Below, piece by piece: positions 29,570-47,055 of a DNA stretch of 64,000 nucleotides. The first letter of the stretch is position 1. Each line of letters begins with the position of its first letter. The position numbers and the translations under genes were made by a program. Source of the stretch: Capillimicrobium parvum (GTDB taxonomy: Bacteria > Actinomycetota > Thermoleophilia > Solirubrobacterales > Solirubrobacteraceae); contig NZ_CP087164.1 in the NCBI RefSeq assembly GCF_021172045.1, positions 744,001 to 808,000 of the forward strand, given 5' to 3'. The notes beneath the pieces are model-generated. The model worked only from the letters and a program-made list of their open reading frames with translations. It did not search any database and was not told the origin of the DNA.

Positions 29570-30715
29570 TCAGCGTGATGCCCCGGCCTCGAAGGCTTGG
29601 CGATGCGTGTCCTTCGAGCGCCGCGTGTGGCGGGCGATCACGTCTCTGACCGCGGCGCGGTCCTCGCGTTCGAAGGCGTCCACGAGCGCCTCGTGATCGG
29701 CGATGAGGCCGTCGTCGGCCTCGTCGGACCGGCGCAGGGTGCGTGCCATCATCGCCGGGATCGCCAGCGCGCGGTAGGCCTGCAGCGCCGTCCGGCCGCC
29801 GGCGATGCTCACGAGGTGCTCGTGGAATCGCGCGTTGGCGGCGGCGTACCGCTCCACGTCGACGAAGCGCCCGTCGCGGACCAGCGGGCGGGTCGCCTCC
29901 ATCAGGCGCCGCAGCTCGTCGAGCTGCTCCCGGGAGACGCTGCCGACCGCCACCTCGGCCGCGCCCATCTCGATGAGACAGCGCGCGTCGAGCGCGTCGA
30001 GGACCGTGGTCAGCGAGATCGGGGCGAGGACGTACCCCCGGCCGGGGTCTCGCGCGATCATGCCCTCCGCCGCCAGCTTGGTGAGCGCGTGGTGGACGTG
30101 CCAGGGCTCGAGGCGCAGCTCGTCGGCGAGCAGCTGGACGTCGAGCGGCTCGCCGGGCGGGATGCGCCCGGTCAGCGCCCGGTCGCGCAGCTCGGCGTAC
30201 GCCGCGTCGTCGGCCTCCACCTCGAGTCGCCCGAATCGTCCGCGGAAGTAGGCCAGCGGCGAGCCGCGGCGCGCCTCGGCCCGCTCCACCGCGCCGAACA
30301 ACACCGAGTGGGTGCCGCCCTCGACGTCCTCGGTCACCCGGCATTCGAGGCACGCCAGCGCGTCCTGCAGCAGCGGGACGCCCGTCGAGCCCTCGGTCAC
30401 GGCGAGGCCCGCGAACTTGTCGGCGTGCGGTGTGGCGAACCGCTCGGCGATGTGGCCGTGGTTCTCGCTGAGGATGTTGACCGCGAACACGCCGGCGCGG
30501 CTCACCGCCACCCGCGTGGGTGCGCTGCGGTTGAGGCAGGCGAGCAGCATCGGCGGGTCCATGGACAGCGAGCTCACCGCGCTGGCCGTCATGCCGTGCC
30601 GCTGTCCTCCGGCGACGGTGGTGATCACGGTGACGCCGCTGGCGAAGTGGCCGATCACGTCGCGAAAGACGTCGCGGTCGCAGGTGTGCGCGGGCGTGGT
30701 GCGTGGATCGGGCAT
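29570..30715 (-). CDS. Flavin reductase fused to a GntR/FCD-type regulator
   Basis: This 381-residue protein joins two families. Residues about 10-165 are an HpaC-type flavin reductase domain (FASGVTVITTV, GMTASAVSSLSMDPPMLL, FAVNILSENH), which supplies reduced flavin to a partner monooxygenase. Residues about 170-235 form a winged helix of the GntR type, ending in EGMIARDPGRGYVL. About 240-375 form the ligand-binding FCD all-helical domain. The ATG at 30715 begins the reductase similarity. It lies downstream of an HpaB-type monooxygenase gene that needs such a reductase, so one polypeptide may both feed the oxygenase and sense a pathway ligand or flavin redox state. Confidence 0.83.
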   Translation of the reverse strand: MPDPRTTPAHTCDRDVFRDVIGHFASGVTVITTVAGGQRHGMTASAVSSLSMDPPMLLACLNRSAPTRVAVSRAGVFAVNILSENHGHIAERFATPHADKFAGLAVTEGSTGVPLLQDALACLECRVTEDVEGGTHSVLFGAVERAEARRGSPLAYFRGRFGRLEVEADDAAYAELRDRALTGRIPPGEPLDVQLLADELRLEPWHVHHALTKLAAEGMIARDPGRGYVLAPISLTTVLDALDARCLIEMGAAEVAVGSVSREQLDELRRLMEATRPLVRDGRFVDVERYAAANARFHEHLVSIAGGRTALQAYRALAIPAMMARTLRRSDEADDGLIADHEALVDAFEREDRAAVRDVIARHTRRSKDTHRQAFEAGASR

Positions 30716-30738: not shown

Positions 30739-31610
30739 CTACGCGGCGAGACCCAGGAGCCGCGCGGCGTTGTCCTTGAGGATGCGCGGGCGCACCTCGT
30801 CCTTGATGGGCACCTGCTCGAAGTCGGCCAGCCACCGGTCGGGCGTGATGACCGGATAGTCGGATCCGAACAACACCTTGTCGCGCAGCACGGTGTTGGC
30901 GTACTGGATCAGGACGGGCGGAAACAGCTTCGGCGACCAGCCGGAGAGGTCGATGTACACCTGCGGCTTGTGCATGGCCACGCTGATGGCCTCCTCCTGC
31001 CAGGGGAAGGAGGGGTGGGCGAGGACGATCGGCATGTCCGGGAAGTCGACCGCCACGTCGTCGACGAACATCGGGTTCGAGTACTTCACGCGGATGCCTC
31101 CGCCGCCGCGCATGCCCGATCCCATGCCGGAATGGCCGGTATGGAACAGCGCGGGCAGGCCGGTCTCGGCAATCGCCTCGTACAGGCCGTACGCCATCCG
31201 GTCGTTGGGGTAGAAGCCCTGCAGGTTCGGATGGAACTTGAACCCCCGCGCGCCCCGGTCGATCAGGCGGCGCGCCTCGCTCACCGCGCGCTTGCCGCGA
31301 TGGGGATCGAGGCTGACGAACGGAACGAGCACGTCGTCGTTGGCGTGCGCGACGTCGAGCACCCGTCGTTGGAGACCGGCACCTCGCCGGTGTTCGCTTC
31401 GTTGTCGACGCAGAAGATGACTGCCGCCATGTTGCGGCTGCGGTAGTACTCGGCGACCTCGTCGGCGTTGGGACGGGGGACGTCGGTGCGGAAGTGCTTG
31501 GACGCGGCGTCCAGGATCTCGGTGGTGATCGGATCGGGGGGCCCGGTTCGTGGAACCTGGGCGTGCGTGTGGACGTCGATGGCGGTGATGCGCTGGAGAT
31601 CGATGGTCAT
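30739..31610 (-). pseudogene. Amidohydrolase 2 family hydrolase, split by a frameshift
   Basis: The ATG at 31610 overlaps the ligase stop as ATGA and starts MTIDLQRITAIDVHTHAQV with the HxH metal site. The frame is sound until VPVSND near 31365, then is lost. The downstream frame continues the same protein from VLDVAHANDDVLVPFVSLDP through FKFHPNLQGFYPND, LFHTGHSG and LFGSDYPV with the metal-binding His/Asp residues to the stop at 30739. Adding one G near 31365 restores a continuous protein of about 290 residues. This may be a sequencing error or a real break. The family includes 4-hydroxyphenyl-beta-ketoacyl-CoA hydrolases (CouO-type), which fits the context. Confidence 0.75.
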
Positions 31611-33463
31611 GCGGGTCTCGCGGGTTCGGGGTGGCCTTGGACGCTGGTCTGCGCGCGGTCGGGCTCGACCATCTGCCGGGAGGCCGGGTCGCCGAAGAGC
31701 TCGGCCAGTGCGGACCCCCGCCGTTGGAGCACGGCGCGCCGGTTGAGGGAGCCCTTGTCGGTGACTTCGCCGGAGTCGATGCTGGGCGGCTCGTCGAGCA
31801 GGACGAGCCGTTCGATGCGCGAGGCCGATCCCTGCCCCTCATTGAGCGCCTGCAGCGCACGCGCGAGATCGTCGCGCAGCCCGGGGTGATCGAGGGCGAC
31901 GGGACGCTCGCCGCCGTAGCGTCGCCGCGCGCGGGTCTGATCGACCCAGGCCAGCGCGCCCACGAAGCGCTCGTTCTCGCCCGCGATGACCGCGTCGGCG
32001 AGCACGCCGGCCTCCGCCAGCAGGGCGGTGCGCAGGCGGCCGGCCCGCACCCACGTGCCGGTGACGAGCTTGAAGTCCTCGCCCAGCCGGCCATCGAAGA
32101 CCAGGCCCTGATGAGGGTCGGTCTCGTCGACGAACCGGCAGGCGTCCCCGGTCCGGAAGAAGCCGTCGGAATCGAACGTCTGCGCCGTGAGCCCGGGCTG
32201 TCCGAAGTAGCCGGGCGTGATGCCCGGGCCCTTCGCCATGGCCTCCCAGCGCGTGTCGCGGGCGACCAGCTTCAGCGTCACGCCGGGCAGGGGGAGGCCG
32301 ATGCAGCCGCGGGCCGCCGGGTGCCAGTGCGCCGCGGTCAGGCCGGGCCCCGTCTCGGTCGCGCCCCAGCCCGCGATCAGGGGAACGTCATGGTCGCTCG
32401 CCGCGTCGGCCACGGCTCGCAACCGGTCCCAGAGCGCCGGCTCCAGGGCCGCCGCGGCAGAGAACATGAAGCGCAGGCGCGAGAAGAACGCGCGGGCGAA
32501 CCCGTGGTCGTCCTCCAGCGCGCAAGCCAGTTGGGCGTATCCCGCCGGAACGTTGTAGTAGACCGTCGGCCGGATCGCGCGCAGCGCGGCGATGCTTCGC
32601 GGGAAGTCCTCGGCCGTGGGCTTGGCGTCATCGATGTGGATGCTGCCCCCGAACGCCAGCACCTGGCCGAGGTTGTGGTTGCCGCCGAACGTGTGGCTCC
32701 ACGGCAGCCAGTCGACCAGCACCGGCGGCTCGCCGGCCATGAACGGCCACACCTGGCCGATGGCCTGCTGGTTGGAGCACAGCATCCCGTGGGTGTTGAC
32801 GACCCCCTTGGGGACGCCGGTCGATCCCGACGTGAACAGCAGCTTGGCCACGGACTGCGGCGTCACCGCGGCGAACGCGCGCTCGACGTCGGGCCCGGCC
32901 GGCGTTCGCACGAGGTCGTCGAATCGCACCGCACCGGCACGCTGCCCGCGCGCCACCACCTCGACCCGCCCCGGCGCGGCCACGGCGTCCAGCGCCGCGC
33001 CGTAGGGGCCGGGGTCGTCGGCGAAGACCATGCCCGGCGAGCAGAGCGCGGCGATCGCTCGGATGCGGGCATGGTCCCGGCTGGCCAGCGAGTACGCCGT
33101 GCTCACCGGGATCACGGGCACGCCGGTCGTGTGCGCCCCGAGGGCCATGACGAGGTGCTCGATGGAGTTGCCCGACAGGATCATCAGCGGCCGGTCGGCG
33201 CCGAGCCCGCGGTCGAGCATCGCCTGCCCTACGGCATCGGCTGCGTGCCGCGCGTCGCCCCACGTGAGCCGTCGCCAGCCTCCGTCGTGGCGCTGCGCGG
33301 CCAGCAGCGCGTCAGGCGCTCGCTCGCCGTGGCGCCGAAGGAGATGGCCGAGGGTGGGAGCGTGCTCGCCCAGCTCGTCGGCTGACCGCAGCAGCACGAC
33401 GTCGCCGCGGTCTTCGACCAGGACGCGTGGGGTGGCGAAGACGCGTGTCGCGCCCGCCGTCAT
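31607..33463 (-). CDS. Feruloyl-CoA synthetase-like acyl-CoA ligase
   Basis: A 618-residue AMP-forming ligase of the feruloyl-CoA synthetase type. The phosphate loop LLFTSGSTGVPKG, the GWGATETGPG motif, the hinge region EDFKLVTGTW and the C-terminal lysine in EVTDKGSLNRR are intact. It would activate an aromatic acid as CoA thioester using ATP. In this cluster the likely acid is the beta-keto acid left after carboxylation and dephosphorylation of a hydroxyaryl methyl ketone, an inference. The ATG at 33463 is the first with family-like sequence. It overlaps the amidohydrolase start by ATGA. Confidence 0.87.
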   Translation of the reverse strand: MTAGATRVFATPRVLVEDRGDVVLLRSADELGEHAPTLGHLLRRHGERAPDALLAAQRHDGGWRRLTWGDARHAADAVGQAMLDRGLGADRPLMILSGNSIEHLVMALGAHTTGVPVIPVSTAYSLASRDHARIRAIAALCSPGMVFADDPGPYGAALDAVAAPGRVEVVARGQRAGAVRFDDLVRTPAGPDVERAFAAVTPQSVAKLLFTSGSTGVPKGVVNTHGMLCSNQQAIGQVWPFMAGEPPVLVDWLPWSHTFGGNHNLGQVLAFGGSIHIDDAKPTAEDFPRSIAALRAIRPTVYYNVPAGYAQLACALEDDHGFARAFFSRLRFMFSAAAALEPALWDRLRAVADAASDHDVPLIAGWGATETGPGLTAAHWHPAARGCIGLPLPGVTLKLVARDTRWEAMAKGPGITPGYFGQPGLTAQTFDSDGFFRTGDACRFVDETDPHQGLVFDGRLGEDFKLVTGTWVRAGRLRTALLAEAGVLADAVIAGENERFVGALAWVDQTRARRRYGGERPVALDHPGLRDDLARALQALNEGQGSASRIERLVLLDEPPSIDSGEVTDKGSLNRRAVLQRRGSALAELFGDPASRQMVEPDRAQTSVQGHPEPARPA

Positions 33464-33476
33464 CCTGCCGGCCGGG

Positions 33477-35024
33477 TCACGACGTCCACGGGCCCCGTGC
33501 CCACCCGTCCAGGTCGTAGTCCGCGAGGCACGCATCGACGAGCTCCTGCTGGCCGGCGGTGATGCCGCCGATGCCGGAGAAGCGCAGCGTGTCGAGGCGG
33601 ATCTGCTCCTGGTTGCCGCTGTAGTTGACCTCGTACCAGGCGTGGCGGTCGCCGAACTCGCTGCCCACGGCGTCCCAGATGAGCTTGAAGAGCTTGATGC
33701 GGTCATGCGCGTCGCCGTCCGAACCTCGGTAGTACCGGTCGAGCGTCGGACGCAGCTCCTCGCTGAGCAGGTCCTGCGCGCTCGACGGAACGACCAGCGG
33801 GGCGCCGCCCAGCTGCTCCGTGAAGATCTGACGTGCCAGGCCGAACGCCTGGGTGCCGAACTGGCGGATCAGCACCGCGTACTCCAGCTTGGGGATCACG
33901 CTGCCGCCCGGGCCGGACTGGGTCTCGTGGCACAGCGTGGAGGTCAGCGCCCAGATCAGGTTGCGCCAGCCCATGAGCTCCCCGAGCTGCGCCTGGACGC
34001 CACGGAAGCCGTCGGTGCCGTTGGCCTTCAGTCCGCGGGCCAGGAGGCCGCACAGGAAGTCGAGCTTGACCGCCAGGCGCGTGCCGGACTGCAGCGTGTA
34101 GCGCGGCATGAAGCCCGACTGCGCGTAGAACGCGGTGGCCTTCCTGACGTCGCGGTAGACGAGGACGTCCTCCCACGGGACGAACACGTCGTCGAAGACG
34201 ATCACGGCGTCGTTCTCGTCGAAGCGCGCCGACAGCGGCGCGTCGAACGGCGACGTCGCCTTGGCCTCGTAGGAGGCGCGCGAGATGAGCTTCACGCCCG
34301 GCGACGCCATAGGCACGATGAAGCACAGCGCGTAGTCCTCGGCCTTGCCCTCCTGCAGTTCGACGGCGCTGTTCTGGGCGACGAACGTCGCATGGGTGAG
34401 CGCCGAGCCGGTCGCGAGCATCTTGGCGCCGCGCACGACCATCCCCCCGTCGCGCTCGGCGACCACGTGCACGTAGACGTCCTCGACCTCGTGGACGGCG
34501 CGGTGGCGGTCGATCGGCGGGTTGATCAGGACGTGGTTGAGGAAGAGGACGCTCTCGGCGTACTTGCGGTACCACCTGCGGCCGCTGTCGCCGAAGGGCT
34601 CGTACCAGTCGGGATCGGCCCCGAGCGTGGCCATGAAGGACGCCTTGTAGTCCGGCGTGCGGCCCATGTAGCCGTAGGACATGCGCGACCAGGACGCGAT
34701 CGCATCGCGCGAGTCGAGCAGATCCTGCGAGTCGTAGCTCGGCATGAAGAAGCGGTGGGTCAGGATCCCGTGGCGGTCCTCGGCCAGCAGGACGTCGCGC
34801 TGGCCGGGGTCGTGCATCGCGTCGTACAGCCGCGCCACCGAGCGTGCGGCGTTGCGGAACGCCGGATGGGACGTGACGTCCGCGACGCGTTCGCCGTCGA
34901 TCCAGACCTCACGGCCGTCGCGCAGGCTCTCGAGGTACTGCTCTCCGGTCAGCACGTTGTTCGCCGGAGCATCCATCACAGCTGCGTCTTGGGGCCGGAC
35001 AGATCCGACGCGGGGGTCAGTCAT
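33477..35024 (-). CDS. HpaB-family FADH2-dependent aromatic monooxygenase
   Basis: This 515-residue protein belongs to the 4-hydroxyphenylacetate 3-hydroxylase (HpaB) family, which hydroxylates phenols ortho to the OH using reduced flavin from a separate reductase. Family stretches include MGRTPDYKASF, INPPIDRHR, MLATGSALTH, FDDVFVPWEDVLVYRD and the C-terminal SGNQEQIRLDTLRF. Length is normal. It is the first gene of the leftward operon, and the flavin reductase-regulator fusion three genes downstream is the obvious partner. The promoter is shared with the kinase-carboxylase operon, which places it in the same pathway. The precise phenol is unknown. Confidence 0.88.
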   Translation of the reverse strand: MTDPRVGSVRPQDAAVMDAPANNVLTGEQYLESLRDGREVWIDGERVADVTSHPAFRNAARSVARLYDAMHDPGQRDVLLAEDRHGILTHRFFMPSYDSQDLLDSRDAIASWSRMSYGYMGRTPDYKASFMATLGADPDWYEPFGDSGRRWYRKYAESVLFLNHVLINPPIDRHRAVHEVEDVYVHVVAERDGGMVVRGAKMLATGSALTHATFVAQNSAVELQEGKAEDYALCFIVPMASPGVKLISRASYEAKATSPFDAPLSARFDENDAVIVFDDVFVPWEDVLVYRDVRKATAFYAQSGFMPRYTLQSGTRLAVKLDFLCGLLARGLKANGTDGFRGVQAQLGELMGWRNLIWALTSTLCHETQSGPGGSVIPKLEYAVLIRQFGTQAFGLARQIFTEQLGGAPLVVPSSAQDLLSEELRPTLDRYYRGSDGDAHDRIKLFKLIWDAVGSEFGDRHAWYEVNYSGNQEQIRLDTLRFSGIGGITAGQQELVDACLADYDLDGWARGPWTS

Positions 35025-35069: not shown

Positions 35070-35084
35070 TTCTGTTTGACAGGA
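35070..35084. promoter_or_regulatory. Operator-like box 1 (TTCYG-N5-CAGRA)
   Basis: TTCTGTTTGACAGGA is a 15-base imperfect palindrome in the divergent promoter. It shares the consensus TTCYGNNNRACAGRA with boxes 2 and 3. The size fits IclR-type binding sites, and an IclR gene closes the rightward operon. Confidence 0.6.
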
Positions 35085-35089
35085 TAGGT

Positions 35090-35104
35090 TTCCGCTCAAC
35101 AGAA
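35090..35104. promoter_or_regulatory. Operator-like box 2
   Basis: TTCCGCTCAACAGAA starts exactly 20 bases after box 1, two helical turns, so proteins at both would lie on the same DNA face. Confidence 0.6.
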
Positions 35105-35163
35105 AGTCAAGCACCCGGCGCTGGGGTCGGGGGTGGCCGGTCATGTTAGATTTCGCAAACGAG

Positions 35164-35178
35164 TTCTGCGCAACAGAA
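35164..35178. promoter_or_regulatory. Operator-like box 3
   Basis: TTCTGCGCAACAGAA has perfect 5-base arms and lies 63 bases before the kinase gene, near where its promoter should be. It is the best match to the consensus. Confidence 0.62.
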
Positions 35179-35240: not shown

Positions 35241-37115
35241 ATGACCGATACACCGGACCGGTTCCCCCACATCTTCGAGGTGCCGACGCCTCCGGGCGCC
35301 GAAGGGTGGCGCGAGATGTACCCGTACTACCTGGTGTCGCAGGACGAGGTTCGCGACCACGAGGCGAGCGTGTTCTGGATCCAGGACAAGTACCACCACG
35401 CGCACCCGTACTACCCCTTCGACACCATCGCCGTCGAAGCCTGGGGCTTCGCCTGCGGTGGCTACTCGACGCGCGTCTTCGCCGTCCCGCCGGTGTTCGG
35501 GCTCGACCAGCGCTTCGTCAACGGCTACCTCTACTTCGGCGCCGTCCCGGTCACCGACCCCGCCCAGATCGAAGAGCGCGCGCGGCATTTCGGCGAGCGC
35601 GCCGGCTTCTACTTCGCCAACTGGGATGCGATGTACGAGAAGTGGAAGGAGAAGGCGCAGGTCGCGATCACGGAGATGGAGGCGGTCACCTTCGTTGCGC
35701 TGCCCGACCTCGAGCCGATGTCGAGCGTGACCGAGGGGCTCGGGCGCAGCCGCGGCTACGACGCCCTCACGGCGTACAGCACGCTGATCGATCGCTTCCT
35801 GCTGATGCACCAGTACCACTTCGAGATGCTGAACATCGGCTACGGCGCGTACCTGACGTTCTTCGAGTTCTGCAAGGGCGCCTTCCCCGACATCTCCGAC
35901 CAGGAGGTGGCGCGCATGGTGGCCGGGCTCGACGTCATCGCGTTCCGCCCCGACGAGGAGCTCAAGAAGCTGGCGCGCGCCGCGGTCGAGCTCGGGGTCG
36001 ACGAGGCGTTCGAACGAGATGGCACGCCGGAGGAGATCTTCGCGGCGATGAAGGACAGCGACGGCGGCCGCGAGTGGCTCCAGCGCTTCGACGACGCCAA
36101 GTACCCGTGGTTCAACTTCTGCTCGGAGTACGGCTTCTACCACACGCAGCGCGCCTGGATCGACGATCTGGCCGTGCCGCTGCGGGGCATCGCCGACTAC
36201 GTCGTGCGCGCGCGCGCCGGGGAGGACCTCCTGCGTCCGACCGAGCGCCTGCGGGCCGAGGCCGACGCCATCGCCGGGAAGTACCGGGAGCTGTTCACCA
36301 GCGAGGACGAGCTGGCGCAGTTCGAACAGCTGCTCGGGCTGTCGCGGACCGTCTTTCCCTACATCGAGGACCACAACTTCTACGTCGAGCACTGGTCGCA
36401 CACGATCTTCTGGAACAAGATGCGCGATCTCGGCGACCTCCTGGCGCACAGCGGACTCCTGGCCGCGCGCGACGACGTCTTCTACCTGCACCGCTACGAG
36501 ATCTCCGAAGCGCTGTTCGACGTGGCCGAGTCGTGGGCGATCGGCGTCGCTCCGCGCGGATCCAAGCGCGCGCAGGACAAGGTCGCGCGCCGCAAGGAGA
36601 TCGTGGAGACGCTGCGCGACTGGGAGGCTCCGCCCGCCCTCGGCGCGCCGCCGGAGGTCATCAACGAGCCGTTCATCATCATGAACTACGGGGTCACCAC
36701 CGCCCGCGTCCAGGAATGGCTGCGCGGCACCACGGGCGAGGTCCGCAGCCTGTACGGCATCGCGGCTTCGCCGGGCGTCGTGGAGGGCCCGGCCCGTGTG
36801 ATCCGCACGGAGAAGGAGCTGTCGCAGGTGCAGCACGGCGAGATCCTCGTGTCGCCGACGACCGCTCCGTCGTGGGCCTCGGTGTTCTCGCGCGTGTCGG
36901 GCGTCGTGTCCGATGCCGGCGGGGTCATGTCCCACGCGGCCATCGTGTGCCGCGAATACGGGCTCCCGGCGGTCGTGGGCGCCGGCATGGCCACCTCGGT
37001 CATCGAGACGGGACAGCGCATCCGCATCGACGGAGGCACCGGGACCATCAGCCTCCTCGACGAGGACGGCGGCGACGGCGACCGTGCGCCGCAGACCTCA
37101 GGGGCGGCGTCGTGA
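35241..37115 (+). CDS. PEP-synthase-like phosphotransferase, phosphohistidine subunit (HpeHI/phenylphosphate synthase type)
   Basis: This 624-residue protein ends in the mobile phosphohistidine domain of PEP-utilising enzymes: GIAASPGVVEGPARVI, then GGVMSHAAIVCREYGLPAVVG with the phosphorylated His565. The first 480 residues form a family-specific region rich in aromatic residues. The PEP/pyruvate barrel is absent. Phenylphosphate synthase and the Hpe aryl-ketone kinase are likewise split, with one subunit carrying the histidine and another the ATP site. It therefore probably transfers phosphate from His565 to a phenolic hydroxyl. It leads an operon of at least six genes and overlaps the next gene by GTGA. 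Confidence 0.83.
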   Translation: MTDTPDRFPHIFEVPTPPGAEGWREMYPYYLVSQDEVRDHEASVFWIQDKYHHAHPYYPFDTIAVEAWGFACGGYSTRVFAVPPVFGLDQRFVNGYLYFGAVPVTDPAQIEERARHFGERAGFYFANWDAMYEKWKEKAQVAITEMEAVTFVALPDLEPMSSVTEGLGRSRGYDALTAYSTLIDRFLLMHQYHFEMLNIGYGAYLTFFEFCKGAFPDISDQEVARMVAGLDVIAFRPDEELKKLARAAVELGVDEAFERDGTPEEIFAAMKDSDGGREWLQRFDDAKYPWFNFCSEYGFYHTQRAWIDDLAVPLRGIADYVVRARAGEDLLRPTERLRAEADAIAGKYRELFTSEDELAQFEQLLGLSRTVFPYIEDHNFYVEHWSHTIFWNKMRDLGDLLAHSGLLAARDDVFYLHRYEISEALFDVAESWAIGVAPRGSKRAQDKVARRKEIVETLRDWEAPPALGAPPEVINEPFIIMNYGVTTARVQEWLRGTTGEVRSLYGIAASPGVVEGPARVIRTEKELSQVQHGEILVSPTTAPSWASVFSRVSGVVSDAGGVMSHAAIVCREYGLPAVVGAGMATSVIETGQRIRIDGGTGTISLLDEDGGDGDRAPQTSGAAS

Positions 37116-38194
37116 GCATGACCGGCGTCGAGCAGGTCTACGCGCTCCCCTTCGACGCGCCGCTCGCCCGCGAGCGCGTGCACTCGGGCGGCAAGGGCGC
37201 CGCGCTGGCGGACATGATCGCCGCCGGGCTGCGGGTGCCGCCGGGCTTCGCGGTGACGGTCCGGGCGTGCCGTGAGGCGCTTGCCGCGCCGCAGCTCGGC
37301 GAGGCCATCGCGGCAGCGGCCGGCGACGCCGGCGACGAGGCCGCCGCGGTCGCGGCCGCCGACCACGTACGAGCGCTCATCCTCGACCACGAGGTCCCCG
37401 ATCGCATCCGCGACGCCATCGTCGAGGCGTATCGCGACCTCGGGGCTGCGCTCGGAACCGAGAACCCGGCGGTCGCCGTCCGCTCGAGCGCCGTGGCCGA
37501 GGACGGCGACGCGGCCAGCTTCGCCGGCGAGTACGAGAGCTACCTCTGGATCCGCGGGGAGGAGGAGGTCGTCGCCGCGGTGCGGCGGTGCTGGGCCAGC
37601 CTGTTCAACCGTCGCGCGATCGTCTACGTCAGCGAGCACGGGATGGACGCGGCCGCCGCCGAGATGGCGGTGGTCGTGCAGCTGATGGTCGATGCGCGGG
37701 TCGCGGGCGTCATGTTCACCGTCAACCCGCTCTCCGGCGATCCGTCGCGCATCTCGATCGAGGCCAACTGGGGTCTCGGCCTCTCCGTCGTCGGCGGTGA
37801 GGTGACGCCGGACCGCTATCTGGTCGACCGCGTCAACATGACCGTCTGCGACCGCCGGATCGCCGACAAGACCGAGCAGTACGTCGCGGCGGCGCGGGCC
37901 GGCGACGATGGCAACGTCGAGCTCGTTGCCGTCCCCGACGAGCAGCGGAAGGCGGCGTGCCTCGACGACGACGAGGTGCTCGAGATCGCCCGTCTCGGCG
38001 TCGAGCTGCACACCCACCACGGTGGCGCGCAGGACGTCGAGTGGGCGCTCGACGCCCGCCTGCCGTTTCCCGAGAACGTGCTGCTGGTCCAACGCCGGCC
38101 GGTGACGGTCCATGGCCGGCGCCCCAGCGTGGCGATCGCCGGACAGGGCGTCACCGACTGGATCGTCGCCAACCTCACCAAGGATCGCCGATGA
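37112..38194 (+). CDS. PEP-synthase-like kinase, ATP-binding subunit (HpeHI/phenylphosphate synthase type)
   Basis: A 360-residue protein equal to the N-terminal ATP-binding half of PEP synthase. It shows GGKGAALADMIAAGLRVPPGF, VAVRSSAVAEDGDAASFAGEY and, late, DVEWALD followed by the LLVQRRPVT end of the domain. It would phosphorylate the histidine of the partner subunit, using ATP to AMP plus phosphate as in the family. The GTG at 37112 overlaps the preceding stop; an ATG at 37118 is the alternative. It overlaps the BCCP gene by ATGA. Absence of a fused swivel domain confirms a two-component enzyme. Confidence 0.85.
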   Translation: MSMTGVEQVYALPFDAPLARERVHSGGKGAALADMIAAGLRVPPGFAVTVRACREALAAPQLGEAIAAAAGDAGDEAAAVAAADHVRALILDHEVPDRIRDAIVEAYRDLGAALGTENPAVAVRSSAVAEDGDAASFAGEYESYLWIRGEEEVVAAVRRCWASLFNRRAIVYVSEHGMDAAAAEMAVVVQLMVDARVAGVMFTVNPLSGDPSRISIEANWGLGLSVVGGEVTPDRYLVDRVNMTVCDRRIADKTEQYVAAARAGDDGNVELVAVPDEQRKAACLDDDEVLEIARLGVELHTHHGGAQDVEWALDARLPFPENVLLVQRRPVTVHGRRPSVAIAGQGVTDWIVANLTKDRR

Positions 38195-38691
38195 GCGACG
38201 ACGGAGATGGCGGCGACGAGCTCACGGGTTCGGACGTCGACGCGATCCTGTCGCTGATCAACACGCTCGACTTCGACGAGGTCACGGTCCGTCAGGGCGC
38301 GCTGACGCTGACGGTGACCAAGGCCGGCGCGCCTGCGGCGGAGGCCGTGCCACCGGACGCGATGCCCGCCGCCCCCGCGCCCGGCCCGGCCGCCGCCGCG
38401 CCGGCGCCCCCCGCGAACGTGCCCGCACCGGCACCGGACCGCCGCACGACGGTCAGCTCGCCCCTGCTCGGCACGTTCTACTCGCGCCCCGAGCCCGGTG
38501 CCGAGCCCTTCGTCGCCGTCGGCTCCCAGGTCGACGAGACGACGGTGGTCTGCATCGTCGAGGTGATGAAGATGATGAACTCGGTCCAGGCGGGGGTCCG
38601 GGGCACGATCGTCGAGTGCCTCGTCTCGGACGGGGAGCTCGTCGAGGCCAACGGGCCGCTGTTCGCCGTCGAGCCCGCCCCCGCGCCGTGA
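38191..38691 (+). CDS. Biotin carboxyl carrier protein
   Basis: A 166-residue carrier with the biotinylation motif EVMKMM, the modified lysine being Lys127. The domain runs from about 88 to 163; an acidic N-terminus of about 45 residues and an Ala/Pro-rich linker (46-83) precede it, as in AccB-type carriers. It shuttles carboxybiotin between the biotin carboxylase and carboxyltransferase encoded next. Both ends overlap neighbouring genes (ATGA and GTGA), indicating strict co-expression. Confidence 0.93.
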   Translation: MSDDGDGGDELTGSDVDAILSLINTLDFDEVTVRQGALTLTVTKAGAPAAEAVPPDAMPAAPAPGPAAAAPAPPANVPAPAPDRRTTVSSPLLGTFYSRPEPGAEPFVAVGSQVDETTVVCIVEVMKMMNSVQAGVRGTIVECLVSDGELVEANGPLFAVEPAPAP

Positions 38692-40058
38692 CGTCCCTGC
38701 CCCGGCGCCTGCTCGTCGCTCAGCGTGGCGAGATCGCGCTGCGCATCATCGGGGCGTGCGACGCGCTCGGCATCGAGACGGTCCTCGCCGCATCCGCGGC
38801 GGACCTCGACAGCCTCCCGGCCCGGCGCGCCGGCCGGACGGTGTGCGTGGGCGAGGCGCCCGCGACGCAGAGCTATCTGCTGGCCGACGCCATGGTGCAC
38901 GCCGCACTCGCCACCGGTTGCGATGCGCTGCACCCGGGCTACGGCTTCCTGTCGGAGAACGCGGGCCTGGCCCGCACGTGCGCGGACGAGGGCCTGATCT
39001 TCGTGGGCCCGAGCGCGCGCCACCTCGTCGGCTTCGGCGACAAGGTCACGGCGCGGCGGCTGGCCGGTCAGGCCGGCGTTCCGCTGCTGCCCGGCCGCAG
39101 CGTGGACGGGGTCGGCGACGCACTCGCGGTCGCCGAGGAGCTCGGCTACCCGCTGCTGCTGAAGGCGGCTCATGGGGGCGGGGGCAAGGGCATCCGCATC
39201 GTTCGCAGCCAGGCCGAGCTTCGCGAGTCGTTCCCGGTCGCCGCCTCGGAGGCGGTCGCCTCGTTCGGCGACGGCCGGCTCTACGTCGAGCGCTACGTCG
39301 CCGCCGGCAAGCACCTCGAGGTGCAGATCGCCGGCGATCGCCATGCAACCACGATCCACCTGGGTGAGCGCGAGTGCTCGCTCCAGTACGGCTATCAGAA
39401 GCTGCTGGAGGAGTCTCCCTCACCCAGTCTCACGCCGCGCGAGCGAGCGGACCTGCTGGCCTGTGCCGTCGCGCTCGGCGGCGAGGTGGGCTACGACAAC
39501 CTCGGCACCGTGGAGTTCCTCTTCGACGTGCAGCGCCGCGAGCTCTTCTTCCTGGAGGTCAACCCGCGCATCCAGGTGGAGCACCCCGTCACCGAAGCGG
39601 TCACCGGCGTCGACCTGGTCCAGGAGCAGATCCGGATCGCGTGCGGGCAGCCGCTGAGCGTTGCGCAGCGCGACGTCGCCTTCGACGGTCACGCGATCGA
39701 ATGCCGGGTCAACGCCCAGATCCCCACCGCCGACGGGCTCCTGCCGCGTCCGGGGCGCATCGACCGCTGGGAGCCGCCCGACCTTCCCGGGGTCCGCGTG
39801 GACTCGCACTGCTTCTCGTCCTATCTCGTCCCGCCGTACTACGACGCCCTGCTGGCCAAGGTCATCGCGCACGCCGGCGACCGTCCGGCGGCGATCGCGC
39901 TGATGCGCGACGCGCTGGACGCATTCGTCGTCGACGGCGTCCCGACCACCATCTCGCTGCACCAGACGGTCCTCGCGCATCCGGCGTTCGCCGCCGGCGA
40001 GGTGACCACCAGCTGGCTGGACGAGGAACTGGCCGACCTTCTGATGGAGACCGCATGA
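38688..40058 (+). CDS. Biotin carboxylase subunit
   Basis: This 456-residue protein is a stand-alone biotin carboxylase that carboxylates carrier-bound biotin with bicarbonate and ATP. Lys159 and the glycine loop GGGGKG (163-168), Lys238, Glu276, and the NPRIQVEHPVTE motif (292 onward) are in place. Numbering follows the E. coli enzyme closely. Unusually, the canonical QRRHQK segment reads QYGYQK (233-238), so His236 is Tyr. The GTG start overlaps the BCCP stop. It is coupled by ATGA to the carboxyltransferase. The rest of the fold looks intact, so activity is expected. Confidence 0.92.
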   Translation: MTSLPRRLLVAQRGEIALRIIGACDALGIETVLAASAADLDSLPARRAGRTVCVGEAPATQSYLLADAMVHAALATGCDALHPGYGFLSENAGLARTCADEGLIFVGPSARHLVGFGDKVTARRLAGQAGVPLLPGRSVDGVGDALAVAEELGYPLLLKAAHGGGGKGIRIVRSQAELRESFPVAASEAVASFGDGRLYVERYVAAGKHLEVQIAGDRHATTIHLGERECSLQYGYQKLLEESPSPSLTPRERADLLACAVALGGEVGYDNLGTVEFLFDVQRRELFFLEVNPRIQVEHPVTEAVTGVDLVQEQIRIACGQPLSVAQRDVAFDGHAIECRVNAQIPTADGLLPRPGRIDRWEPPDLPGVRVDSHCFSSYLVPPYYDALLAKVIAHAGDRPAAIALMRDALDAFVVDGVPTTISLHQTVLAHPAFAAGEVTTSWLDEELADLLMETA

Positions 40059-41545
40059 GCCGGACGATCGGCCTGATCGACACCACGCTGCGCGACGGCA
40101 ACCAGAGCCAGTGGGGCGCCACCGGCATCGACAACGTCATGGTGTCCGACGTCCTGCCGGCCCTCGCCCGGGCGGGCTACGAGGCGATCGAGTTCATCAC
40201 GAGCACGCTCATGGCGACCAGCGTGCGGTTCCACCACGAGGACCCGTGGGAGCGCATCCGCAATGCGGCGCAGGCGCTCCCCGACACCCCGCTGGGCTTC
40301 CTGACCAGCGGCCTGAGGTTCATCAGCTGGGATCGCACGCCCCTGGAGATCATGGAGTTCGCGCTGCGGCTGCTGATGAAGAACGGGATCCGGCGCTTCT
40401 GGGTCATCGACTCGCTCAACGACATCGACGCGGCGCTGAAGATCGCCTCGCTCATCAAGAGCGCCGGCGACGCCGAGGTCGTGATGGGCATCGTCTACAC
40501 GGTCAGCCCCGTCCACACCGACGACTACTACGCGCAGCGCATCGACCGCATCGCCGCATCGCCGCTGGTCGACGCCGTGTACCTCAAGGACGTCGGCGGT
40601 CTGCTGACGCCTGAGCGGACCCGTTCGCTGATCCCGGTCATGCGGTCGAGGATCGGCACCCGCCGGCTCGAGATGCACGCCCACTGCAACACGGGCCTGG
40701 CGCCGCTGTGCTACCTCGAAGGCGCCGCACTCGGCGTGGACGCCGTCCACACGGCGATCTCGCCGCTGGCCAACGGCTCGGCCCAGCCGTCGGTCGAGAA
40801 CACGGCGCGCAACCTGCGCCAGCTCGGATACGACGTGTCCGTCGACGACGAGGCGCTGGCCGAGATCGCCGGCTACTTCCACAGCGTCGCCCGCCGCAAG
40901 GGCCTGCCGGTCGGCGCACCGGTGGAGTACGACGTCGCCTACTACGACCACCAGGTTCCGGGCGGGATGATGGGCACGCTGCGTCGCCAGCTGACCGAGA
41001 TGGGGATGGCCGACCGCCTGCCCGAGGTCCTCGAGGAGGTGGCGGTCGTCCGGCAGGAGCTCGGCTACCCGATCATGGTCACGCCCTTCTCGCAGTTCAT
41101 GGGTGCGCAGGCGGTGATGAACGTCGTGTCGGGCGAGCGCTACTCGATGGTTCCCAACGAGGTCGTCGCCTACGTGCGCGGCGTCTACGGCGAACCGCCG
41201 GCGCCGGTCGACCCCGACGTGCGCGACCGGGTGCTCGCGTCGGCCGGAGCGGCGTCCGGCCGCGACGGCGCGGCCGAGATGACGCTCGCGGACCATCGCC
41301 GCCGCCTCGGCGCCACGCTGGACGACGAGGAGCTGCTGATGCGGATCGTCATGCCCGCCGAGCAGATGGACGCCATCCGGACGTCCCCGGCCCTGCGTGC
41401 GACGAGCGCCGCGCGTCCGATCGTCGACCTCATACGCGAGCTCGGCACGCGGACCGACGTGTCGCGCGTTCAGGTCCGCAAGGGCGGCTTCCTCCTCGAC
41501 ACGCAGCGCGCCCTGCCGGCGCGCGGGCCAGGCGTCGAGGGCTGA
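40055..41545 (+). CDS. Carboxyltransferase subunit, pyruvate carboxylase/transcarboxylase 5S type
   Basis: A 496-residue HMGL-like barrel plus the pyruvate-carboxylase C-terminal region. It has DTTLRDGNQS (9-18) with the metal-binding Asp14, the carboxylated lysine Lys178 in YLKDVGGLL, the metal site MHAHCNTG (His208, His210) and PGGMMGTL. The pyruvate-binding LLRGQN motif of pyruvate carboxylases is replaced by LTSGLR (83-88), losing the arginine and glutamine that hold pyruvate. It thus probably carboxylates another carbonyl compound. In the Hpe pathway the acceptor is the methyl group of a phosphorylated hydroxyacetophenone, an inference here. Confidence 0.88.
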   Translation: MSRTIGLIDTTLRDGNQSQWGATGIDNVMVSDVLPALARAGYEAIEFITSTLMATSVRFHHEDPWERIRNAAQALPDTPLGFLTSGLRFISWDRTPLEIMEFALRLLMKNGIRRFWVIDSLNDIDAALKIASLIKSAGDAEVVMGIVYTVSPVHTDDYYAQRIDRIAASPLVDAVYLKDVGGLLTPERTRSLIPVMRSRIGTRRLEMHAHCNTGLAPLCYLEGAALGVDAVHTAISPLANGSAQPSVENTARNLRQLGYDVSVDDEALAEIAGYFHSVARRKGLPVGAPVEYDVAYYDHQVPGGMMGTLRRQLTEMGMADRLPEVLEEVAVVRQELGYPIMVTPFSQFMGAQAVMNVVSGERYSMVPNEVVAYVRGVYGEPPAPVDPDVRDRVLASAGAASGRDGAAEMTLADHRRRLGATLDDEELLMRIVMPAEQMDAIRTSPALRATSAARPIVDLIRELGTRTDVSRVQVRKGGFLLDTQRALPARGPGVEG

Positions 41546-42398: not shown

Positions 42399-43181
42399 AT
42401 GACCGGACCGTCCCGGGAGCGCCCTGCCTATCCGATCGAATCGGTCGACAATGCGCTGAGGCTGCTGCTCACCTACCGGGACCGAACGGCGATCCGGGTC
42501 TCCGAGGCGGGCGAGGCGATGGGCGTGGCCCCGTCGACGGCCCACCGGCTTCTGGCCATGCTGCAGTACCACGGGTTCGTGACGCAGGACGAGCAGTCGC
42601 GCGCCTACCTCGCCGGACCTGCGCTGGTCGATCTCGGTCTTGCCGTCGTCGGGCGGATGGACATCCGCGATGCGGCCCGTCCCCATCTGGAGGCCCTCTG
42701 CCGTGACGTCGGCGAGACGGTCCATCTCGCCGTCCTGCGCGACAACGAGGTCCTGTTCGTCGACAGCGTCGAGACGACGAAGGCGGTGCGCGTCGGCTCG
42801 CGCACGGGCGAGACCATGCCGGCGCACTGCACCTCGATCGGCAAGGCGCTGCTCGCGGAGCTGCCTGCGGATCGCCTGCGCGAGCTCTACCCGACGCCCC
42901 GGATCAAGGGACGGACCGAGAAGTCGATCTCGACCCGGGCGCGCCTGGAGCGAGAGCTGGAGGACATCCGCGCGGTGGGCTACGCGACGAACTTCGGCGA
43001 GAGCGAGTCGGAGCTCAGCGCGGTGGGGATGGCCATCCAGGGAGCGGTCGGCACGCGCGCGGCGGTCAGCATCTCCGCGCCGGTCTCGCGGCTGGACGGC
43101 GAGGCCATCCGCGCGCTGGCCGGGCCGCTGGGGGCCTGCGTGGAGCAGATCGGCGCCGAGTTGTACGTTCCGCGAACCTGA
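42399..43181 (+). CDS. IclR-family transcriptional regulator
   Basis: A 260-residue regulator with an N-terminal winged helix (about 12-75, containing VSEAGEAMGVAPSTAHRLL) and a C-terminal IclR effector domain (about 85-250) with a typical GTSIGKALLAELP-like segment, here TSIGKALLAELPADRL. IclR proteins often control aromatic catabolic operons by binding 15-base palindromes. It sits 15 bases after the phosphatase, and the three boxes at 35.1 kb are candidate targets. Whether it activates or represses cannot be told from sequence. Confidence 0.88.
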   Translation: MTGPSRERPAYPIESVDNALRLLLTYRDRTAIRVSEAGEAMGVAPSTAHRLLAMLQYHGFVTQDEQSRAYLAGPALVDLGLAVVGRMDIRDAARPHLEALCRDVGETVHLAVLRDNEVLFVDSVETTKAVRVGSRTGETMPAHCTSIGKALLAELPADRLRELYPTPRIKGRTEKSISTRARLERELEDIRAVGYATNFGESESELSAVGMAIQGAVGTRAAVSISAPVSRLDGEAIRALAGPLGACVEQIGAELYVPRT

Positions 43182-43297
43182 GCGGGCGGGATGTGCGGCC
43201 TGACCGGGGCCTGACCCCTCACGGCTGACCGGCCGTGCCCGAGCCGGTAGAACTTGCGCTCTTCGACGCCGTCGCATCCACGGCACCGGGAGGTCGC

Positions 43298-45373
43298 TTG
43301 CTGTTCGCAGGTATCGACATCGGTGGGACGTTCACGGACCTCGCGCTCTACGACTCCGGGACCGACGCGCTCGTCGTCCACAAGCTGCGCTCGAGCCCGG
43401 ACGACCCGTCGCGCGCGCTCGTGGAGGGGATCGCCGAGCTGTGCGCGCTTGCGCAGGTCGGGACGGACGCGCTCGACGGGGTGCTGCACGGGACGACGAT
43501 CGCGACGAACGCGGTGCTCGAGCACCGAGGGGCGAAGACCGGCCTGATCACCACCGACGGCATGCGCGACGTCCTGCACATCGGGCGCCACCAGCGCCCG
43601 GAGCCGTACTCGGTCATGCAGGACGTCCCGTGGCAGGACCGCCCGTTCGTCCGGCGCTCGGAGCGCCTCACCGTGCCGGAGCGCATCGCGCCGCCGCGCG
43701 GCGACGTGGTGCAGGCGCTCGACGAGGACGCCGTCCGGGCCGCCGCCGCCCAGCTGCGCGACGCCGGCGTCGAGGCCGTCGCCGTCTGCTTCCTGTTCTC
43801 CTACCTCGACGACGCCCACGAGAAGCGCGCGGCGCAGCTCGTCCGCGACGCGATGCCGGACGCCTTCGTGACGACCAGCGCGGACGTGAGCCCGCAGTTC
43901 CGCGAGTTCGAGCGTTTCAACACCACCGCGATGAACGCCTTCGTCGGACCGGGCACGGGCCGGTACCTCGCCCGCCTGACCCAAGGGCTCGCGAGCCGGG
44001 GCGTCGCCGCCGAGCTCCTCGTGATGCGCAGCAACGGCGGCGTCGCGAGCGCACGGGAGGCGGCCGAGCGGCCGGTCACGCTCATGCTCTCCGGCCCCGC
44101 CGCCGGCGTGCTCGGTGCGCAGTGGGCGGCCGGGCTGACCGGTCGCCGGAACCTCATCACCTTCGACATGGGCGGCACGAGCGCCGACATCGGGATCGTG
44201 GCCGACGGCATGGTGACCGAGGCCTCCGCGCGCGACACGCAGGTCGCCGGCTACCCGCTGCTCGTCCCCATGTTCGACATCGAGACGATCGGCGCGGGCG
44301 GCGGCTCGATCGCCCGCCTCGATGCCGCCGGCGCGTTCCGCGTCGGACCGCAGAGCGCCGGGGCCGACCCGGGGCCCGCGTGCTACGGCCGCGGCGGCCC
44401 CGACGCGACGATCACCGACGCGCATCTCGTCCTCGGGCGCATCGACCCCGAGCGGTTCCTCGGGGGCGACATGCCGCTCGACCCGGGGGCGGCCGCCGCG
44501 GCGATCGATCGCCTGGCCGCCGAGCTGGGCATGAGCCGGCTCGACACCGCCGCCGGCGTCCTGCGGATCGCCAACGCGCAGATGGCGCGGACGATCCGCG
44601 GGATCACCGTCGAGCGCGGCCGCGACCCGCGCAGCTTCGCGCTCGTCGCGTTCGGCGGGGCGGGGCCGCTGCACGCCGCCGATCTCGCCGACATGCTCGA
44701 GATCCCCGAGGTCCTCATCCCGCCGCACCCGGGCATCACGTCGGCGACCGGGCTGCTGACCTCCGAGCTGCGCTACGACCTCATGTCCACGGTGCTCATG
44801 GTCCAGGGCGCCATCGACGGGGCGCGGATCGACGAGCTCTTCGCGCAGCTCACCGCCATCCTGCTCGAGCGTCTGCAGCGCGACGGCGCCGACCCCGACC
44901 AGGTGCGGGTCGAGCGGTCGCTGGACTGCCGCTACGTCGGTCAGGGCTACGAGCTGCGCATCCCGTTCGACGGCCACGCGTTCGCGGAGGCGGCGCTCGA
45001 CCGCTTCCACGCCGTCCACGAGCAGGAGTACGGCCGCGCGCTCGCCGACCCGATCGAGATCGTCAACGTCCGCGTGCGCGCCGCCGGGGATCGCCCGCGG
45101 CTCACGCGCATCGCCGTGGGCGGCGGCGATCTCGCGTCCGCGACGATCGGCGAGGCGGCGTCCGTCTGGGACGTCGGCGGCGAGCTCGCCGACCTGCCGA
45201 CCCGGCGGCTGCTGCGAGAGCGCCTGCCGATCGCCGAGCCGATCGACGGCCCGGCGGTCATCTTCCAGCGCGACACGACGATCGTCGTGCCGCCGAGCTG
45301 GCGGGCGACCGCCGATCCCGGCGGCCCGCTGCTGCTGTCCGCCGTCCGCACGACCCAGGGAGGCCGACGATGA
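43298..45373 (+). CDS. Hydantoinase/oxoprolinase A-type protein (HyuA)
   Basis: A HyuA-family ATPase of about 691 residues with FAGIDIGGTFTDLALYD at its very start, GTTIATNAVLEHRG, TFDMGGTSADIG and GAGGGSIARLDAAG. These enzymes cleave hydantoins, oxoproline or lactams with ATP, or act in carboxylases. The TTG at 43298 is preferred because a gggagg ribosome binding site lies just upstream and the ATP motif then sits where the family has it. A GTG at 43235 would add 21 residues but has no ribosome binding site. No gamma-type subunit is present. It overlaps hyuB by ATGA. Confidence 0.85.
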   Translation: MLFAGIDIGGTFTDLALYDSGTDALVVHKLRSSPDDPSRALVEGIAELCALAQVGTDALDGVLHGTTIATNAVLEHRGAKTGLITTDGMRDVLHIGRHQRPEPYSVMQDVPWQDRPFVRRSERLTVPERIAPPRGDVVQALDEDAVRAAAAQLRDAGVEAVAVCFLFSYLDDAHEKRAAQLVRDAMPDAFVTTSADVSPQFREFERFNTTAMNAFVGPGTGRYLARLTQGLASRGVAAELLVMRSNGGVASAREAAERPVTLMLSGPAAGVLGAQWAAGLTGRRNLITFDMGGTSADIGIVADGMVTEASARDTQVAGYPLLVPMFDIETIGAGGGSIARLDAAGAFRVGPQSAGADPGPACYGRGGPDATITDAHLVLGRIDPERFLGGDMPLDPGAAAAAIDRLAAELGMSRLDTAAGVLRIANAQMARTIRGITVERGRDPRSFALVAFGGAGPLHAADLADMLEIPEVLIPPHPGITSATGLLTSELRYDLMSTVLMVQGAIDGARIDELFAQLTAILLERLQRDGADPDQVRVERSLDCRYVGQGYELRIPFDGHAFAEAALDRFHAVHEQEYGRALADPIEIVNVRVRAAGDRPRLTRIAVGGGDLASATIGEAASVWDVGGELADLPTRRLLRERLPIAEPIDGPAVIFQRDTTIVVPPSWRATADPGGPLLLSAVRTTQGGRR

Positions 45374-47055
45374 CCACGTCCAGCGCGACCATCGACCCCG
45401 TCAGCGCGTCGGTCATCGGCGGCAGCCTGAGCTCGATCGCGATCGAGATGGGCTACCGCCTGACGCGCATGTCGTACTCGTCGATCATCCGCGAGTCCGA
45501 GGACTTCGGCTGCGCGATCTGCGACGACCAGGGCCGCCAGCTGTGCGTCTCGACGCAGTCGACGCCGCTGCAGTCCGCGCCGATCCCCGGCTACGTCGCC
45601 GGCATCAACCGGCGCTTCGCCGAGCTCGGCGACACGTGGCAGCCGGGCGACGTGGTCATCCACAACCATCCGTACTACGGCTCGTCGCACCAGCCCGACG
45701 TGGGTCTGGTCGTGCCCGTGTTCGTCGAGGACCGGCTCGTCGGGTTCTCGGTGACGACGGCCCACCACCTCGACCTCGGTGCGCTCAGTCCCGGCAGCTG
45801 CGGGATCGTCGACGCCGGCGACACCTTCGCCGAGGGCCTGCACCTCAACGCGGTCAAGGTGCAGGAGGGCGGCCGGCGGGTCGAGAGCGCGTGGCGGATC
45901 ATCGCCGACAACACGCGCGTTCCGCGACTCGTCGTCGGCGACCTCGAGGCGCAGGTCGCCGCGGCGACGTTCGGCGCCGAGCGCTTCCGCGAGCTGATCG
46001 CCGAGCACGGCCTCGATCGCGTCGTCGCCGCATCCGAGCACCTGATGGACCACTCGGAGCGGATGCTGCGCCAGGCGATCGAGGCGATCGGCGACGGCCG
46101 CTACGAGGCCGAGGGGATCCTCGACGGCTTCCTCGACCATCCCGATCCGGGCTACCGCGACCTCGCGATCAAGGTCGCGATCACCGTGAGCGGATCCGAC
46201 CTGCACGTCGACCTGACCGGCACCGCGCCGCAGGTCGACCTGCCGATCAACATGCCGTTCGTCGGCACGGTCGACGCGGCGGTGTACGTCACGCTGCGGT
46301 CGCTGCTGCTCGACTCGGCCACGAGCGATCCCGTCGCGACCAACTCCGGGCTGTTCCGGCCGATCACGATCGAGGCACCGCTCGGCACGCTCGCCAACCC
46401 GCGCTTCCCCGCGCCGACGATCGCCCGGTTCTGCTCGGGCAACATCGTCGCCGCGACCGTCATGCGCGCCCTCGCGCCGGTGCTGCCCGAGGCGGTCTCC
46501 GCGGGGATCGGCAATCTCAAGGTGACCGCGTTCTCCGGCGAGGCGGACGGGGCCGCCTGGGTCTACATGGACATCATGGAGGGCAGCTACGGCGGGCGCT
46601 TCGGCAAGGACGGGATCGACGCCGTCGACACGCTGTACGCGAACACGCGCAACAACCCGGTCGAGGACATCGAGTCGCACTATCCGCTGCGGGTGACGCG
46701 CTACGAGCTGTCCGACCGCGGCGCGGGCGCGGGGCGGTGGCGGGGTGGCCTGGGCTCGGTGCGCGAGTTCGAGTTCCTCGCCGACGGCGGCTTCTCCATG
46801 GAGGGCGACGGCAGCAGCAGCGCGCCCCCCGGCCTGTTCGGCGGCGCCGACGGCACGCCGGGCCGCGTGGTGCTCGACCCGGGCACGGACGCCGAGCGCG
46901 ATCTGCCGTCCAACAGCCCGTACCGCAAGGCGGCCGCGGGTACGGTCCTGCGGCTCGTCGGCCCCAGCGGCGGCGGGTACGGAGATCCCGCGCTGCGCGC
47001 CCCGGAGGCCTCCGCGCGCGACGATGCCGACGGCATCGCCGTGACGGGCGGATGA
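45370..47055 (+). CDS. Hydantoinase B-type protein (HyuB)
   Basis: A 561-residue HyuB-family protein, close to the usual length. It has VIHNHPYYGSSHQPDVG, HHLDLGALSPGSCG, DLTGTAPQVDLPIN and the C-terminal GGGYGDPALR segments. With HyuA it forms an ATP-dependent ring-opening enzyme or, less likely, a carboxylase. The next reading frame begins within its stop codon as an M20-type carbamoylase fragment, which suggests an original hydantoin-to-amino acid operon. Confidence 0.88.
   Translation: MTTSSATIDPVSASVIGGSLSSIAIEMGYRLTRMSYSSIIRESEDFGCAICDDQGRQLCVSTQSTPLQSAPIPGYVAGINRRFAELGDTWQPGDVVIHNHPYYGSSHQPDVGLVVPVFVEDRLVGFSVTTAHHLDLGALSPGSCGIVDAGDTFAEGLHLNAVKVQEGGRRVESAWRIIADNTRVPRLVVGDLEAQVAAATFGAERFRELIAEHGLDRVVAASEHLMDHSERMLRQAIEAIGDGRYEAEGILDGFLDHPDPGYRDLAIKVAITVSGSDLHVDLTGTAPQVDLPINMPFVGTVDAAVYVTLRSLLLDSATSDPVATNSGLFRPITIEAPLGTLANPRFPAPTIARFCSGNIVAATVMRALAPVLPEAVSAGIGNLKVTAFSGEADGAAWVYMDIMEGSYGGRFGKDGIDAVDTLYANTRNNPVEDIESHYPLRVTRYELSDRGAGAGRWRGGLGSVREFEFLADGGFSMEGDGSSSAPPGLFGGADGTPGRVVLDPGTDAERDLPSNSPYRKAAAGTVLRLVGPSGGGYGDPALRAPEASARDDADGIAVTGG

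Follow-up and report, generated by a model that had tools for sequence, protein, structure and literature searches.

Among the genes of the window analyzed here (the whole stretch of DNA, 64 kb in length), one appears to encode a ligand-gated NADH:flavin oxidoreductase that carries a former GntR/FCD transcription factor as a built-in sensor, a reading that we hold with moderate confidence from sequence and from analogy to a characterized enzyme. The C-terminal half of the protein is probably a substrate-sensing switch that acts on the enzyme and not on genes. This reading is built on the architecture of the protein, its conservation, its linkage to oxygenases, the loss of its DNA-contact residues, and the retention of its FCD pocket. 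The gene (29570 to 30715, minus strand, with the ATG at 30715 and the stop at 29570) is an unbroken reading frame of 381 codons, and its product unites a reductase, a winged helix, and an FCD domain in one 381-residue protein, as the first-pass annotation had proposed, with all three domains above their Pfam cut-offs. The Flavin_Reduct domain (PF01613; residues 22-164, 30224 to 30652, minus strand) scores 142.9 bits against a cut-off of 27, spans profile positions 2-152 of 153, and was also recovered by the genome scan and by structure-model matches. It is followed by a GntR winged helix (PF00392; residues 171-228, 30032 to 30205, minus strand; 35.9 bits, cut-off 27), likewise matched by the model, and by an FCD ligand/metal domain (PF07729; residues 241-365, 29621 to 29995, minus strand; 59.9 bits, cut-off 24.3), also evident from alignments, so that the C-terminal half has the winged helix-then-FCD layout of GntR/FCD regulators. 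A chance frame or a fusion created by assembly or sequencing is ruled out by about 70 homologues with equal layout.

The reductase domain was first described as HpaC-type, and this is correct at the level of the superfamily: both the whole-domain Pfam score and the conserved positions place it, by sequence, with HpaC, HsaB, and PheA2, while the equivalog cut-offs for HpaC, HsaB, and C1-HPAH are all unreached. It is not a domain that lacks its key residues, as R18, G27, T43, S49-L50, P54-P55, C60, H136, P153-L154, Y156, and R158-G159 are identical in 72 of 72 aligned fusions. HpaC, HsaB, and PheA2 share with the fusion a reductase domain with conserved flavin-site residues but are only 150-190 aa long and have no C-terminal domain. 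A structure model of the window protein built on 63 homologues has a mean pLDDT of 87.5 and a pTM of 0.56, the latter leaving the packing of the domains uncertain. In this model, the reductase half matches FAD-bound CtcQ (Z 23.2) and ThdF (Z 22.6) as well as C1-HPAH (Z 22.2), with PheA2 and HpaC at Z 18-21, and residues 166-378 match the GntR/FCD regulators AlkR (Z 19.1 over 206 residues) and TM0439 (Z 18.8). The top Foldseek match to the full model is the C1-HPAH of Acinetobacter baumannii, and no solved structure spanning both halves of the fusion was found.

A homologue search with an alignment of seven fusions as the query recovered 65 full-length homologues in named genomes, all 371-403 aa long with the same domain order, of which 56 are from Actinomycetota, 8 from Bacillota, and one from a contig labelled Pseudomonadota. 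Additional relatives contributed 6 fusions of the same layout, and five contigs are present in both sets (L027/L021, L030/L022, L035/L023, L043/L024, and L059/L012). Within the class to which the window belongs, few genomes carry the fusion (6 of 399 at E 1e-60), and matches to the reductase in the phage collection were only partial. Among annotated entries, the fusions, and CphB, which is considered below, are named just "flavin reductase", and we found no description of a GntR-FCD version of a flavin reductase in the open-access literature, where our search was made; one may exist elsewhere. The SadC protein of sulfonamide degraders is a possible candidate for a characterized member.

The genomic surroundings point to a role in supplying reduced flavin. 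The window contains an HpaB-type group D flavin monooxygenase (33477 to 35024, minus strand; HpaB_N 308.9 bits, HpaB 179.2 bits), as first noted, which scores 569 bits against TIGR02310, below the cut-off of 885. The oxygenase had been placed next to the fusion, and the two are indeed in the same gene run, with HpaB upstream on the same strand; they are not adjacent, as two genes are situated in between. These encode an acyl-CoA-synthetase-like (AMP-binding) protein (31607 to 33466, minus strand; PRK12582 658 bits, cut-off 777) and an amidohydrolase-like protein (30739 to 31610, minus strand, start approximate), the latter lying directly upstream of the fusion with a gap of 23 nt. The reading frame of the amidohydrolase-like gene shifts near 31.29 kb, through either disruption of the gene or an error in sequencing. 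A whole-genome scan found seven PF01613 reductases, of which the fusion is the sole one in the window, in agreement with the original remark that the cluster has no other reductase. Two further HpaB genes in this genome each have their own reductase directly alongside, which fits the fusion being the reductase of the window's HpaB, and it is likely that this HpaB uses the reduced flavin that the fusion would make.

The same association recurs across the family. The survey of fusion occurrence and HpaB linkage that had been suggested at the outset found a reduced-flavin monooxygenase within 8 kb of the fusion for 57 of the 65 homologues and within 3 kb for 43. By type, HpaB is found within 8 kb of 30 of the 65 fusions, an acyl-CoA-dehydrogenase-type enzyme near 11, and a luciferase-type enzyme near 25; actinobacteria commonly carry luciferase-like and acyl-CoA-dehydrogenase-like genes, and the background rate was estimated for HpaB only, at ~2.6% for such a stretch, from the nine HpaB genes in the window's 5.95 Mb genome. 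In two Streptomyces loci (L032 and L053), an HpaB, 62-63% identical, is directly upstream of the fusion. Both pairs adjoin a gene for a TPP enzyme, and that of L053 also a chorismatase (FkbO/Hyg5-like) gene; the chorismatase-like gene suggests a biosynthetic cluster and, by extension, that the L032 and L053 fusions may serve biosynthesis. The proposal that the fusion supplies flavin to the oxygenase is well borne out, as the invariant reductase residues, the linkage to three monooxygenase classes, and the relative CphB all make reduced-flavin supply by the fusion likely.

The flavin-cofactor genes at some loci raise the alternative that what the FCD pocket detects is flavin, or some other signal at the level of the cofactor, and that the protein so balances flavin supply. 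In the Bacillota loci, the fusion is followed directly by HpaB and a FAD-synthetase-like gene, ribBA lies directly 3' of the L025 fusion, and a FAD synthetase gene is found on the Dietzia plasmid. At most loci, however, the window included, no gene for flavin biosynthesis was seen in the neighborhood, and the catabolic or biosynthetic pathway linked to the fusion varies between loci, both of which make a flavin-level sensor highly improbable.

It was originally proposed that the fusion also controls the promoter of the cluster according to flavin redox state or pathway ligand. Such a bifunctional trigger enzyme would reduce flavin and act through its GntR winged helix on the divergent HpaB promoter, and it draws some support from a GntR domain that is still recognizable at 35.9 bits, with a predicted fold and a wing that retains its GRG sequence. 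Many FCD regulators control catabolic genes, which also favors this idea. The residues that would read DNA, however, tell against it. The solved FCD regulator nearest in sequence to the window protein is Atu1419 (PDB 6z74; VanR/FadR group), which has the same GntR winged helix and FCD fold as fusion residues 166-378 but is free-standing and binds DNA. It contacts DNA through Ser44, Arg45, Thr46, and Arg49 of helix 3 and Arg31 of helix 2, with Arg45, termed a typical feature of the family, reading an essential guanine (PMC7797058), and AlkR likewise makes contact via Arg45 and Arg49 (PMC12042122). In the alignment, Atu1419 R31, S44, R45, T46, and R49 correspond to P190, E203, P204, W205, and H208 of the window protein, so that every side-chain DNA contact of Atu1419 is substituted and the helix 3 arginines of Atu1419, FadR, and AlkR (Arg45 and Arg49) are replaced by Pro204 and His208. 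The degenerate recognition helix, as aligned with FCD regulators, occupies residues 203-213 (30077 to 30109, minus strand) and reads EPWHVHHALTK where free-standing regulators have sequences like SRTPVREALRR.

This degeneration extends to the fusion family, as judged by comparing 29 free-standing FCD regulators from the same genome, taken as controls, with either 36 non-redundant or all 72 fusions. Arg at position 208 is present in 25 of 29 controls versus 1 of 36 non-redundant fusions (Fisher 9e-13), Ser203 in 24 of 29 versus 4 of 36, Glu209 in 23 of 29 versus 0 of 36, and the wing residue Gly227 in 26 of 29 versus 11 of 36, while Arg at 204 persists in 10 of 36 fusions. Positions 204 and 208 are both basic in 17 of 29 controls and in none of the 72 fusions, which weighs against DNA binding by the family. 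The closest free-standing regulators (L003 and L141) read SRSPVHQAL, with His at 208 but S203-R204 kept; His208 may accordingly be older than the fusion and inherited, unlike the loss of S203-R204, which the same comparison indicates is not. It also counts against a bifunctional enzyme that, in a Pfam scan, Flavin_Reduct and FCD were found in 63 of 63 fusions and the GntR model in only 38, having been lost in 25, and that about a dozen homologue loci encode, within 8 kb, a GntR/FCD-like regulator that is free-standing and distinct from the fusion. From these substitutions, the fusion would not be expected to bind DNA.

Nor does the promoter itself resemble a target of an FCD regulator. The 35.0-35.24 kb DNA contains no copy of the FCD-type operator TNGTNNNACNA, which occurs twice in the whole window against 3.8 expected and is therefore not in excess. 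Instead, a motif search of the divergent promoter between the HpaB and PEP-synthase-like genes revealed a candidate operator (35070 to 35178) with three AACAGAA half-sites at 35070 (inverted), 35098, and 35172. No further copy is present in the 64 kb window, where 0.36 would be expected in all (0 of 100 shuffles reach three), and the genome as a whole has the spaced inverted pair just once. The repeat is unlike an FCD operator, and it was rejected as the operator of the fusion because the motif is absent near the fusions of other loci, save for one chance-like pair in L055. The cluster also has a separate regulator gene, an IclR-type gene at 42399 to 43181 on the plus strand (identified from its translation, with the family judged by eye), which is a candidate for the regulator that acts at the 35.1 kb operator. 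With the DNA-contact residues lost, no TNGTNNNACNA site, a repeat of another kind, and an IclR-type gene in the cluster, promoter control is the part of the first-pass annotation that is not supported; gene control by the fusion is unlikely, and we consider a bifunctional DNA-binding enzyme improbable.

The divergent strand on the other side of this promoter encodes PEP-synthase-like proteins, a biotin carboxylase set, the IclR-type regulator, and hydantoinase-like subunits, several of these families having been assigned from translation alone. In the region from 35241 to 41545, a PEP-synthase-like pair has its mobile domain protein and its PPDK_N protein on separate genes, and the pair adjoins a set of biotin carboxylase/carboxyltransferase-like genes, with hydantoinase-like genes following at 43235-47055. 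Together, the genes at 35241-41545 and 43235-47055 resemble an unusual pathway for the phosphorylation/carboxylation of a carbonyl or phenolic compound.

While the DNA-reading residues of the fusion family appear eroded, its ligand domain appears to have been kept. The metal/ligand set of FCD domains, an Asn or Asp and three His, is present in the window protein as N294, H298, H341, and H363, and N294 and H298 align with the zinc ligands N137 and H141 of Atu1419. Fusions and the 29 control regulators are alike at R245, E249, H298, and D352 (p 0.12-1). As aligned, N294 is conserved in 62 of 72 fusions, H298 in 68, and H341 in 35, and since H341 is not universal, metal binding may vary. The fused regulator module seems to lack DNA-reading residues and to have a ligand pocket, and because the pocket residues are kept, a response to a pathway ligand is plausible.

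Alternatively, the role of the GntR-FCD half could be structural, dimerizing the reductase or docking it onto the oxygenase, and involve no control by a ligand. FCD domains form dimers in many regulators, and reductases lacking the extra domain are interspersed with fusions in the reductase tree and are also found beside oxygenases (L099, L100, and L104). The best tree has 10 changes between the two forms, of which at least three are forced, in a quick tree with long branches where the forced changes rest on starred branches and where L086 is counted as single-domain, though the end of its contig cuts its gene. L086, the closest reductase at 62% identity, was for this reason dropped as an example of a domain-less form, as the contig ends inside the gene. 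A search for remnants of a lost domain 3' of the single-domain reductases found none. Given the interspersion, the C-terminal half has probably undergone several gains or losses and is probably dispensable for catalysis, which a structural role would accommodate. A mere scaffold, however, would need neither N294 nor H298, which are conserved despite the overall divergence of the FCD domain, and three unrelated families of partner oxygenases make a shared docking surface unlikely. We regard a purely structural module as a minor possibility.

Natural truncations of the family occur in xenobiotic clusters. CphB, which Pseudarthrobacter chlorophenolicus A6 encodes in its 4-chlorophenol cluster, is described as an NADH:FAD oxidoreductase (PMC3975901) and has been expressed and characterized together with its oxygenase (PMC3975901, PMC6205950). 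We took WP_012623561.1 to be CphB from its position in that cluster; it is encoded at L105:6971-7750, and its Arthrobacter nitrophenolicus counterpart, also in a xenobiotic cluster, at L088:8001-8768. Like the fusion, CphB has a reductase and a degenerate GntR-like winged helix, and it serves an HpaB-type oxygenase, CphC-I; unlike the fusion, it is 259 aa long, and both it and its counterpart stop after the degenerate winged helix, without the FCD domain.

The closest parallel in the logic of its parts is C1-HPAH (AbHpaC; PDB 5zc2, 5zyr) of A. baumannii, in which a reductase is joined to a MarR-like domain and autoinhibited until 4-hydroxyphenylacetate (4-HPA) on the MarR domain relieves the inhibition, speeding flavin reduction at least 30-fold; a 2024 review describes substrate gating at the reductase level as uncommon and names AbHpaC as the exception (PMC10816480). 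Like the fusion, C1-HPAH combines an N-terminal reductase of the same superfamily with a C-terminal module of transcription-factor origin, and it serves a group D monooxygenase, as proposed for the fusion. In contrast, its C-terminus is a MarR-like domain, which the fusion lacks, having a GntR winged helix and FCD instead; the two are 25-34% identical, with the sequence match limited to the reductase, and the NCBIfam model for C1-HPAH (NF045919) gives the window protein 114.4 of 340 bits, from the reductase part only. By these comparisons, the window protein falls outside the C1-HPAH family yet follows the same logic of parts.

A gated reductase that converged with the Acinetobacter C1-HPAH is, by this analogy, the best reading of the fusion, and we rank it ahead of the structural module, the bifunctional DNA-binding enzyme, and the flavin-level sensor, in that order. 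Two-component flavin monooxygenases lose NADH to hydrogen peroxide when reduced flavin forms in the absence of substrate. In the proposed mechanism, the GntR-FCD part would restrain the reductase when no ligand is bound, and entry of the aromatic substrate of the pathway, or of a product, into the FCD pocket would lift this restraint. Reduced flavin would then be made only while a compound is available for the partner HpaB oxygenase to hydroxylate, and wasteful NADH oxidation and hydrogen peroxide would be spared. Ligand gating of this kind is likely on the analogy with C1-HPAH, from which, together with the sequence, we infer reductase activity, the identity of the ligand, activation rather than inhibition, and the absence of DNA binding.

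The same genome encodes, in its C1:250085 region, another flavin reductase (L004:1474-2646) with a C-terminal part like an IclR effector domain and no winged helix. This part matches Pfam IclR_C at E 0.015, under the cut-off, and the IclR structure 5tjj by phmmer at E 6e-4, and it may represent an independent acquisition of a ligand domain from a regulator. More broadly, we consider it an evenly balanced proposition that the fusion family domesticated a GntR/FCD regulator as an allosteric substrate sensor and gave up binding to DNA, in an event separate from the MarR capture in C1-HPAH and possibly alongside the IclR capture in L004, so that regulator domains would have been repeatedly recruited to gate the supply of reduced flavin. 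If so, annotators would be warned against reading GntR/FCD matches in such proteins as marks of transcription factors, and the family would offer a ready set of modular ligand-switched reductases. Gating at the reductase would also be widespread in Actinomycetota and Bacillota, and it would have been reached more than once via ligand domains borrowed from transcription factors.
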